This document shows, piece after piece, positions 14,831 to 24,406 of a stretch of DNA of 32,545 bases. The first letter of the stretch is position 1; every line of letters begins with the position of its first letter. The translations under genes were made by a program, and so were the position numbers. Source of the DNA: Desulfuromonas sp. (GTDB lineage Bacteria > Desulfobacterota > Desulfuromonadia > Desulfuromonadales > BM515); NCBI GenBank assembly GCA_002869635.1, contig PKUF01000085.1:1-32545 (forward strand), given 5' to 3'. Under the pieces are notes generated by a model that was not told where the DNA came from, did no database searches, and saw only the letters and a program-made list of their open reading frames with translations.

Positions 14831-15931
14831 TTAGTGGGCGTCGTGCACTGCCGCTTGTCCCCCAAGGAGGGAACGACATTCGTTAAGAATTCGTTGGGCG
14901 GCACCAAGGTGGCCCAGGGAGCGGGCGGCGTCGGCCATATCCAGCAGGCGTGTACGATCCCGCAGCAGATCGGCCACCAGCTTGGCGAGGGTCTCTCCAT
15001 CAAGCTTCGACTGGTGAAGCAAGAGCGCCGCCCCCCGTTGCGCCATTGCCGATGCGTTGGCCGTCTGATGATCGCCGGCGGCGTAAGGATAGGGGATGAG
15101 CAGCGCCGGACGACCACAGGCCGTCAGTTCGGCGATGGTTGTCGCCCCAGCCCGACAGAGCACCAGCTGATGCTGAGCATAGGCACCCGCCATATCGTCG
15201 ATAAAGGGGAGAACTTTCACCTCCTCGCCCCATCCCGCTTCGGCATAGCCTTGACGAACCGCGGCGCAATCTGCTTCACCGGTTTGGTGCAATATCCGCA
15301 ATTGCCCCTTGAGTGTCCCCCAGTGCGGCAGGGCCGCGAGCAACGCCTCATTGATCGCCTTTGCCCCACGACTGCCGCCAAAGACAAGCAGGTTCATCCC
15401 GTCGGGATCGAGAGGAGGGCACTCCTCCATCCCAAGCCGCAAGGGGTTACCGGTCAGGACCGTTTTGGCGGTGGGAAAAGCGCCGCGCGCCTCGTCAAAG
15501 GAGAGGCAAATCCGTCGCGCCAGAGGCGCGAGCAAGCGGTTGGTCAGCCCCGGCCAGGCGTTCTGTTCGTGCACCAAGGTCGGCAGCCGCAGCAGCCAGG
15601 CCGCAAAGAGAACCGGACCGGCGGCATAACCACCGACGCCGACCACCACGTCAGGACGAAAACCACGGAGCAGTTTAATCGACTGGGTGATACTCTTGAT
15701 GAGTCGCGGCAGTAGCGCCAGCTTCCCCAGCGCTCCCTTGTCGACGAGACCGACGATATCGATGGTCGCCAACGACAGATTGAGCTTTGGCAGCACCTTC
15801 ACCTCGATCCCACGTTTGGTTCCGACAAAGAGTGTCTCAGCTGCCGGATCCTCAGCGAGAAGCTGTTGCGCCAGCGCCACCGCCGGGAAGAGATGTCCAC
15901 CGGTACCACCACCGGCCAGAAGCAGTCTAAT
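14831..15931 (-). CDS. murG: MurG glycosyltransferase with an apparent ATT start codon
   Basis: Transfers GlcNAc from UDP-GlcNAc to lipid I to make lipid II at the inner face of the membrane. The family N-terminus, RLLLAGGGTGGHLFPAVALA, is intact in this frame, but the codon where Met should be is ATT at 15931-15929. It is preceded by AGGAGG with a 7-base spacer, an excellent ribosome site. Starting at the next candidate, GTG 15880, would delete the essential GGGTGGH loop. From ATT the protein has 366 residues, normal for MurG, with GGSRGAKAINEAL and the C-terminal AELTACGRPALLIPYP donor-binding motif present. The expected overlap ATGA with ftsW reads ATTA here. AUU is a known rare start (infC), or this is a base error or mutation. 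Confidence 0.93.
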   Translation of the reverse strand: MRLLLAGGGTGGHLFPAVALAQQLLAEDPAAETLFVGTKRGIEVKVLPKLNLSLATIDIVGLVDKGALGKLALLPRLIKSITQSIKLLRGFRPDVVVGVGGYAAGPVLFAAWLLRLPTLVHEQNAWPGLTNRLLAPLARRICLSFDEARGAFPTAKTVLTGNPLRLGMEECPPLDPDGMNLLVFGGSRGAKAINEALLAALPHWGTLKGQLRILHQTGEADCAAVRQGYAEAGWGEEVKVLPFIDDMAGAYAQHQLVLCRAGATTIAELTACGRPALLIPYPYAAGDHQTANASAMAQRGAALLLHQSKLDGETLAKLVADLLRDRTRLLDMADAARSLGHLGAAQRILNECRSLLGGQAAVHDAH

Positions 15932-17037
15932 CGGCCCTCCTCCTTGGTCTGCCAGGAGATATTGAGGAGTACCGCCACCGCTGCCAGGGTGCAGAGCAGG
16001 CTCGTCCCACCGTAAGAGATAAAGGGGAGAGTCAACCCCTTGGTCGGAAGCAACCCCAGCGCCACTGCCATGTTGGTGAAGGCCTGCAAACCGATAAGCA
16101 GGCTCAGACCAAAAGCGAGATGCCGACCGAAATCATCGGGAGCGTTAAGAGCGATATTGATGCCACGCAGTACCAGCAGCAGAAACATGCTCGCCACCAC
16201 GAAAACCCCGACAAAACCGAGCTCCTCACCAATCACCGAGAAGATGAAATCAGTATGTGCCTCAGGAAGGTAGAAGAGCTTCTGGCGCCCATCTCCCAAC
16301 CCGTTACCGAGGAAACCACCGGTACCGATCGCAATCCAGCTCTGGATGATCTGGAAACCCGCCCCGCTCGGATCCTGCCAAGGGTCGAGAAAGGCGAGGA
16401 TGCGACGCATACGGTAAGACTCATGCACGATCAGGTAGCAGACAAAGGGGGTTGCCAGAATCCCCACAGAAAGGAGATAGGCGAAACGGGCCCCCGCCAC
16501 CAGCAGCATCGACATCGCCACCACCGCCAAGGTCAGAGCGCTCCCCATATCGGGCTGGAGCATGATCAGGGCGATGAGCAGCGCCAATACCACCATATAT
16601 GGAACGAATCCGAGGGTGAAGCTTTTGATCTTCTCCTGCTTCTTGGTTAGCGAATGGGCCATGTAGAGAACGAGGCACATCTTCGCCAACTCCGCCGGCT
16701 GCAGCGAAAAACCGGGGAAGGAGATCCAGCGCGCCGCACCACCAGCCCGATGTCCAATACCGGGGATCAGCACTGCCAGCAGCAAAACGATACAGCCGAT
16801 CAGCGCTGGAACCGCCAACCGCCGCAGATGGTGATAATCTACCCGCATCAACAGTGCCATCAAGACAAGCCCCCCCCCGGCGAAAAGCGCTTGCCGCTTA
16901 AGAAAGAAGAAACCGTCAGCGAACCGTCGTGCCGCCATGATCGACGAGGAGGAGTAGACCATCACCACACCGAAACAGGTGAGGACAACCACCAGCAGCA
17001 ACACCGTCGTGTCAAAGGGATGTGAACGTTCCATCAT
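15799..17037 (-). CDS. ftsW: FtsW lipid II polymerase, with a read-through C-terminus
   Basis: SEDS-family peptidoglycan glycosyltransferase working with FtsI at the septum. The protein has about ten membrane helices, GGAARWISFPGFSLQPAELAK, the extracellular loop with FLPEAHTDFIFSVIGEELG-like sequence, and LPFISYGGTSL near the end. FtsW should stop soon after VLLNISWQTKEEG. Here the frame instead continues 43 residues into murG, because the junction reads ATTA rather than ATGA. With ATGA the stop would be at 15930-15928 and the protein would have 369 residues. The start ATG 17037 overlaps the murD stop as ATGA. A run of nine C at 16870-16878 (in-frame glycines on the coding strand) lies in the N-terminal part. 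Confidence 0.96.
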   Translation of the reverse strand: MMERSHPFDTTVLLLVVVLTCFGVVMVYSSSSIMAARRFADGFFFLKRQALFAGGGLVLMALLMRVDYHHLRRLAVPALIGCIVLLLAVLIPGIGHRAGGAARWISFPGFSLQPAELAKMCLVLYMAHSLTKKQEKIKSFTLGFVPYMVVLALLIALIMLQPDMGSALTLAVVAMSMLLVAGARFAYLLSVGILATPFVCYLIVHESYRMRRILAFLDPWQDPSGAGFQIIQSWIAIGTGGFLGNGLGDGRQKLFYLPEAHTDFIFSVIGEELGFVGVFVVASMFLLLVLRGINIALNAPDDFGRHLAFGLSLLIGLQAFTNMAVALGLLPTKGLTLPFISYGGTSLLCTLAAVAVLLNISWQTKEEGRLDCFWPVVVPVDISSRRWRWRNSFSLRIRQLRHSLSEPNVGSR

Positions 17038-22424: not shown

Positions 22425-24406
22425 TCAGGTCGGCGGGGCGAGGCGCACCCAGACCTCATCGCCATAAACAATCTCTTGACCGGCCAATGGCAACTGCTCC
22501 ACCACCCGGCCACTACCGATCAGACGAATATTGAGACCATCCCGCCCCATCACCCGCAACACTTCACGGCTGCTCATCCCGGCGAAATCGGGCATCAACG
22601 GATGTTGCGCCGCATCCATCCCTTTTTTCGTTGCGACTTTCGCCACGGGGCGGGCTGATTTTTCAATGATCCCTTCGATGGTCGGTTCTAGCGCCACCAG
22701 CTGCTGCGGCTGAGTCGCCGGCACCTGCAAATAGCGCAACGACTGAGCTGCGATCTGCGAGAAAATTGGCGCAGCGACCAGACCACCATAGGTCTGCTCC
22801 TGTGGCTCATCAAGAAGAACCAAAATCACCAACTGCGGCTCCTTCGCCGGAACAAAACCGACAAAGGAGGAGACCCGCTTATCCGGCGAATATCCTCCGG
22901 TCACCGGATCGACCTTCTGGGCGGTGCCGGTCTTACCAGCCACATCGTAACCAGGGACATTAGCCAACACCCCTGTCCCCTCATCATCGGTGACCGTCGT
23001 CAGCATCGTCGATAAACGGCTCGAAAGCTCGGGCGGGATAACCTGACGAACCGCCCCCCCCCCCCCGCTTCAAGGAGGTGACCTTCGCGGTCTTGTGCCT
23101 TAAGGACGATCTGCGGCTTCATCAAAATACCACCGTTGGCAATCGCCGCTGTCGCCATCGCCAACTGAATCGGGGTGACCGAAACCCCCTGACCAAAAGA
23201 GATCGCGGCAAGATCGATCTCGAACCATTTGGAGGGAGAACTGAGCAGCCCGTTGACCTCACCGGGAAGATCAATGCCGGTTCGATCTCCAAAACCGAAC
23301 GCCTTGAGGTAACGGTAATAGCGCTCGCGTCCCAATCCCTGCCCCAGCTTAGCGGAACCGATATTGGAACTAACCTGCAACACCTGAGTCGGGGTCAGTG
23401 CCCCGTAGCGACGATGGTCATGGATCGTCTTGCCACCAACTCGATAGGAACCGTTTTCGCAGTTGATCCGCTTGCCGGGGATCGCGACCCCTTCATTGAG
23501 CGCCGCCGCCATCAAAAACATCTTGAAGGTTGAGCCTGGCTCAAAGGTATCGCAGACCGCCCGGTTGCGGCGGGTTTCAGGACGGAAAGAGCCAGCAGCG
23601 TTGGGATTGAAATCAGGCAGACTCGCCATAGCGAGAATCTCGCCGGTCTCTGGCGCAACGACAACGACCGTCCCCGCCTTGGCCCGAGCGCTATAAACCC
23701 CGGCTGCAAGCTCCTTCTCAGCGATATATTGTAGATTTTTATCGATAGTCAGATAGAGATCGCCCTGAGGTCCATCTCCTTCAATCTGCTGTGCGGCCTG
23801 TCCGAGACTTCGTCCTTTGTGGTCATTTTCGCTGATCAGGCGCCGCTCATCACCGGCGAGAAGAACGTTGTAGCGCAGTTCAATCCCTTCTAACCCCCGT
23901 GGATCAACGCCTGTGAAACCAACAACCTGTGAAGCGCTCTCCGAATTGGGATAGAAACGCTGATGTTCTCGATGAAAACCGATCCCCGGAATCTCAAGCA
24001 ACCGGATCTTTTCGATTATCGCCGGCGCAACCTGACGCTTGAGCCAGTAAAAGTTCTTCGATGAGACAAGACGGGCCTGGACGGTTTTTTCATCCATCTC
24101 AAGCAGAGCTGCAAGCTGGCGCGTCTGCTCCGGCGTCGCCTTCACTTTCCGCGGATAGACACAGACGGACTCAACCTCAACACTGATCGCCAACGGCTCG
24201 CCGTTACGATCGAAGATCGTGCCACGTTGCGGTGTTAACGTGACAACCCGGGCATACTGCTTGTCGGCTTGCTTATCCCAGTTTTCACCGGAGGCGATCT
24301 GCAGGTAGAAGGCACGTCCAACAACAAAGACAAAAGCAACCAGAAAGAGAATCCCGATCGTCTTGACCCGCACACGCGCCCAACTCTCCCGCCCGCCACG
24401 CATCAT
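22425..24406 (-). CDS. ftsI: FtsI/PBP3 peptidoglycan transpeptidase, frameshifted at a G13 tract
   Basis: Septal class B penicillin-binding protein. The first part (24406 down to the tract) has a membrane helix at about 15-33, a dimerisation/pedestal domain, catalytic Ser292 in STFK and SSN at 346-348. The second part has KTGTAQKV and a C-terminal PASTA domain (PDFAGMSSREVLRVM to DEVWVRLAPP), as in Desulfuromonadales-type FtsI. The two parts are in different frames. The first runs off frame in a 13-base C run (23054-23066; G13 on the coding strand) to a stop at 23000. A tract of 14 or 11 would restore one protein; with 14 it has 660 residues. Both halves look under normal coding constraint, so the gene is probably functional in life. 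It overlaps ftsL by ATGA. Confidence 0.93.
23054..23066. repeat. 13-base C homopolymer inside ftsI
   Basis: Thirteen consecutive C on the + strand, read as G13 (poly-Gly) in ftsI. It lies exactly where the reading frame is lost, between the KPQIVLKAQDREGHLLEAG and AVRQVIPPELS segments. This is the longest homopolymer I found in the window. Confidence 0.97.

Follow-up and report, generated by a model that had tools for sequence, protein, structure and literature searches.

ATTA in place of the ftsW/murG overlap in a draft Desulfuromonas genome: wrong base or AUU start?

In E. coli, infC and pcnB start at AUU, as does cvfC1 in S. aureus (PMC13009471; PMC5472188). Starts at AUU and AUA work at about 10% of the efficiency of AUG and lie behind extended Shine-Dalgarno motifs (PMC13009471). 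The AUA start of citZ, one of four non-canonical starts reported in S. aureus, is confined to one lineage of that species (PMC13009471). In the dcw cluster, translationally coupled NTGA (ATGA) overlaps are known, in which the stop codon of one gene shares bases with the start codon of the next. Here we describe an ftsW/murG junction that resembles both systems, found in a 32,545-nucleotide stretch of DNA from Desulfuromonas sp. (contig PKUF01000085.1, assembly GCA_002869635.1; the whole stretch is called the window below).

The ftsW/murG junction as written

The minus strand of the window carries a dcw cluster (mraZ, mraW, ftsL, ftsI, murE, murF, mraY, murD, ftsW, murG, murC, murB, ddl, ftsQ, ftsA, ftsZ). 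The features around the ftsW/murG junction are as follows.

15799..17037, minus strand: ftsW as written, 412 aa (TIGR02614, 433.8 bits)
15927-15799, minus strand: FtsW residues 370-412, out-of-frame murG sequence, as judged from the FtsW ends of relatives
15939..15945, minus strand: AAGGAGG Shine-Dalgarno sequence, with a 7-base spacer to ATT and a predicted pairing of -14.6 kcal/mol
15928..15931, minus strand: ATTA replacing an ATGA/GTGA overlap, ATT being the codon at the murG start position
14831..15931, minus strand: murG, frame from ATT to stop (TIGR01133; Glyco_transf_28 and Glyco_tran_28_C domains; 57-66% identity to relatives)
14831..15880, minus strand: the sole NTG-started murG ORF (GTG), which would miss 17 N-terminal residues and with them the GGGTGGH loop

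Both genes scored above the curated cut-offs of their families: FtsW against 337.5 bits, with the match at residues 9-363, and MurG (frame read from CCG ATT) with 310.5 against 250.25 bits, at residues 3-351. On the minus strand the junction reads CAGACC AAGGAGG AGGGCCG ATTA GACTGCTTCTGG, with ATTA at 15931-15928; in a longer reading, AAGGAGG AGGGCCG ATTA is followed by GACTGCTTCTGGCC. The first-pass annotation had placed ATTA exactly where ATGA is expected, after AGGAGG and a 7-base spacer, and this is what we read, counting from the first AGGAGG. The ATGA overlaps that it listed elsewhere in the cluster (ddl/murB, murB/murC, ftsL/ftsI, murE/murF and murD/ftsW) are all five present. On the coding strand, T stands for G at 15929, the third position of the murG start codon. 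Stop and start no longer share bases at this junction, ATTA being neither codon; a single base does abolish the stop of ftsW and the start of murG jointly, as had been proposed, and junctions of the order indicate that the NTGA overlap is ancestral.

As predicted, FtsW as written gains 43 residues from the murG region, its frame running on to 15799. In the 13 relatives compared, FtsW ends at positions corresponding to residues 366-369 of the window protein, i.e. at the ancestral stop, and none of the 13 has the long tail. The tail (example peptide as written, DCFWPVVVPVDISSR) is out-of-frame murG sequence resulting from loss of the stop and not a feature.

The MurG frame lies -1 relative to that of FtsW. 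Upstream of GTG 15880 it contains no ATG, GTG or TTG as far back as the in-frame stop at 16135, and this GTG is downstream of the conserved GGGTGGH loop. In-frame CTG codons are found 2 and 4 codons past ATT and 8 codons ahead of it. The locus has two marks of an AUU start, the lack of a usable NTG and an ATT properly spaced from its Shine-Dalgarno sequence. The claim that MurG must start at AUU holds as far as the missing NTG codons go, but the base on which it depends is private to one draft genome with a broken ftsI on the same contig.

Junctions in relatives and infC as a positive control

MurG is present in 127 of the 136 genomes of the order, from which 92 distinct junctions were read (the junctions of some 30 further genomes were left out). 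murG starts with ATG in 87 of them and with GTG in 5, and no other start was seen; 90 junctions are four-base NTGA overlaps, and in 2 the ATG lies just past the ftsW stop. ATTA does not stand there by chance: its alignment column is occupied by ATGA or GTGA in 90 of 92 junctions. The flank is nearly identical in several relatives, e.g. GAGGTCCGATGA compared with GAGGGCCGATTA in the window. With such starts and near-exact shared flanks, the ancestral state is plain, and this assembly alone shows the change to T; a non-canonical murG start is conserved in 0 of 92 junctions. Relatives with murG starting elsewhere and FtsW ending in the same long tail, named beforehand as the contrary outcome, were looked for and none was found. 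The ATTA pattern was not found outside the window's own loci, and a scan of IMG/VR for a second copy of the region gave no relative. All relatives are at the order level: the window genome is the only member of its genus and family in the comparison set, so near relatives can neither confirm nor deny the base.

We compared infC in 30 order-level loci including that of the window genome, of which 25 were readable in the N-terminal region. In the window genome, infC lacks a suitable NTG at the start, where the sequence is TTAGGAGGTGGCACC ATA.

L305 2012-2010, minus strand: apparent AUA start of infC behind TAGGAGGTG, read from the sequence

ATA stands at the same place, with the same Shine-Dalgarno sequence, in 22 of the 25 readable loci (L307-L334 and the genome's own). 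Apparently, infC begins at AUA in this order. The comparison is able to detect genuine non-canonical starts, as infC shows. By these alignments, a true non-canonical start in this order appears to be conserved, as the AUA of infC is, and that of murG is not.

Of 12 dcw starts of the window whose predicted pairing was compared, murG with its AAGGAGG has the strongest; the value for infC is -15.3 kcal/mol. Among 90 murG junctions of the order, that of the window ranks 7th, and in six relatives with ATG the pairing is as strong or stronger. The strong Shine-Dalgarno sequence is therefore no evidence of compensation for AUU, equal strength being found with ATG.

Quality of the assembly and the weighing of readings

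The genome (G000) is a draft of 138 contigs and 2.39 Mb, 73.9% complete with a contamination of 0.7%, and holds one copy of the window region. A clear lesion lies in the same cluster.

22425..24406, minus strand: ftsI (transpeptidase and PASTA domains) in two frames, broken at a G13 run at 23054-23066, as judged from 13 relatives and the split domain

The Transpeptidase domain is divided between two ORFs (1-190 and 214-298), whereas the two parts share one frame in all 13 relatives compared. All other internal G/C runs in the contigs of this genome that were sampled (about 870 kb) are shorter than this G13. Bacteria that use this machinery to divide need ftsI to live, so a real break is less likely than an error in the sequence. 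All other dcw genes checked in the window align with relatives over their full length.

One complete relative was used to look for frameshifts in 106 ortholog-like pairs (some 94 kb of alignment), and ftsI and one more gene were detected. The latter is conserved and loses its frame at a GGGG run (L256, near 10245, minus strand); from resemblance it may be called FAD-dependent oxidoreductase-like. Scanning the 870 kb for in-frame stops inside coding sequence gave two clear cases, a GGDEF protein and a transposase-like ORF. The GGDEF domain is interrupted mid-way by an in-frame TGA (L158, 12073), where Gly is common in relatives of the domain. Assembly breaks in this genome are mostly indels in G runs, and breaks by substitution are uncommon. 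Singletons at otherwise invariant residues number 50 in the window, or 0.059 of differences, the highest value (others, 0.014-0.050); they are mostly conservative changes in a long-branched lineage, so the ratio says little about base quality. No paper on homopolymer errors in draft assemblies came up in a search of the literature.

Several further observations were made on this genome. The transposase-like ORF (L279, 6160-6829 in reverse-complement coordinates) contains one in-frame TGA. Contig C40 opens with 19 Cs (L266, 1-19) and resembles an assembly artefact. The genome is rich in G/C runs of 8-9 bases, often on coding strands, with 26 in 240 kb besides the G13 (own contigs L145-L164, set against relatives L132-L144). 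Two apparent ATC starts were dismissed: in one, a frameshifted gene, the reference ORF is over-extended, and the other belongs to rnhB, which has TTG two codons on.

By a modest preference, we read the third base of the murG start codon as a consensus error of sequencing or assembly, the organism itself probably carrying an ordinary NTGA overlap. Ribosomes finishing FtsW at TGA would then re-initiate at the overlapping murG start, downstream of the strong Shine-Dalgarno sequence, and the long FtsW tail and the absent MurG start would be two faces of a single wrong base. An error is favoured because the T is private, none of the 92 junctions having another start, and because the genome is a draft with an essential ftsI broken on the same contig and lesions at L256, L158 and L266. 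Yet the known lesions are mostly G-run indels rather than substitutions, substitution errors look rare (two clear nonsense breaks in 870 kb, one of them in a transposase), and the dcw genes checked, bar ftsI, are intact along their length. If the one nonsense break outside a transposase in 870 kb reflects the rate of substitution errors, a rough count suggests that a wrong start codon made by error would be expected in well under 1% of window-sized stretches. Private non-canonical starts are rare as well, citZ being one such reported case, so that the priors of a base error and of a private non-canonical start would be of the same order. The balance tips to error because MurG is essential and belongs to a coupled pair, such starts reach about a tenth of AUG, and a second essential gene on the contig is wrong. 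On the whole, the T is somewhat more likely to be false than real.

The serious alternative, though less likely, is that the T is a real, recent and private G-to-T change, with MurG made from AUU at lower efficiency under discrimination by IF3 and FtsW carrying the 43-residue read-through tail. The AAGGAGG at its 7-base spacer, first among the dcw starts and close to infC in pairing, is consistent with this, as are the intact remainder of murG and ftsW and the natural use of AUU and AUA behind extended Shine-Dalgarno motifs (PMC13009471); but such a start is absent from every relative read, equally strong Shine-Dalgarno sequences accompany ATG, low initiation of an essential enzyme should meet counter-selection, and the genuine non-canonical starts of the order are apparently conserved. 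While the sequence, the frames, the state of relatives and the Shine-Dalgarno sequence are direct readings, what happens in translation is something we infer. Were the base real, the 30S subunit would bind AAGGAGG and initiate at AUU with fMet, IF3 would discriminate against this start as it does for infC in other bacteria (PMC5472188), and ribosomes on the FtsW tail would cross the murG start region, which should reduce initiation further. The predicted sensitivity of MurG to IF3 is sound in this conditional form, the organism having an infC that itself apparently starts at AUA; its premise of a real base is somewhat less probable than the opposite. Rather unlikely is the fuller picture of an uncultured member of the order that makes its essential MurG from AUU, has lipid II synthesis throttled by the level of IF3 together with infC, and bears on FtsW a 43-residue tail from early murG. 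We give very little credence to a real base with MurG made otherwise, by -1 frameshift fusion from FtsW, from an in-frame CTG or as a truncated product from GTG 15880. The -1 frame relation, the Shine-Dalgarno-like AGGAGG ahead and the CTG codons near ATT would fit; however, no X XXY YYZ slippery heptamer lies near the junction in the FtsW frame (ftsW has two, at 16875 and 16359), the CTG codons are poorly spaced from the Shine-Dalgarno sequence, the GTG product would lack the GGGTGGH loop, and no fused or shifted ftsW/murG arrangement was found among the 92 junctions. It is just as improbable that a strain mixture or a decaying genome supplied a real but defective allele: two essential genes broken in one cluster and lesions elsewhere in the genome would agree with it, but the region is single-copy, contamination is low, and the remaining cluster is intact and conserved.

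Comparison with known systems

If the T is an error, the case illustrates clearly that a single false base in a draft can imitate an exotic start codon. A cheap check is at hand, since real non-canonical starts such as the apparent AUA of infC are conserved across the order and artefacts are private. If the base is real, a single step would have put a tightly coupled essential pair under IF3 discrimination and given a cell-wall enzyme a rare AUU start.

Compared with the translationally coupled NTGA overlaps of dcw clusters, the window junction has the same position, frame relation and Shine-Dalgarno sequence as 90 of 92 relatives, and departs from them by the one base that leaves neither stop nor start as written. 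With infC, pcnB and cvfC1 it shares AUU in the start position and a strong Shine-Dalgarno sequence; those starts, however, are backed by experiment and several are also conserved, whereas the putative one of murG is read from the sequence and is unconserved. The infC of the same genome likewise has a non-NTG start behind its Shine-Dalgarno sequence, but one conserved in most relatives read, unlike that of murG. The ftsW/murG case is ordinary if the base is an error, and of a rare but known kind if it is real.
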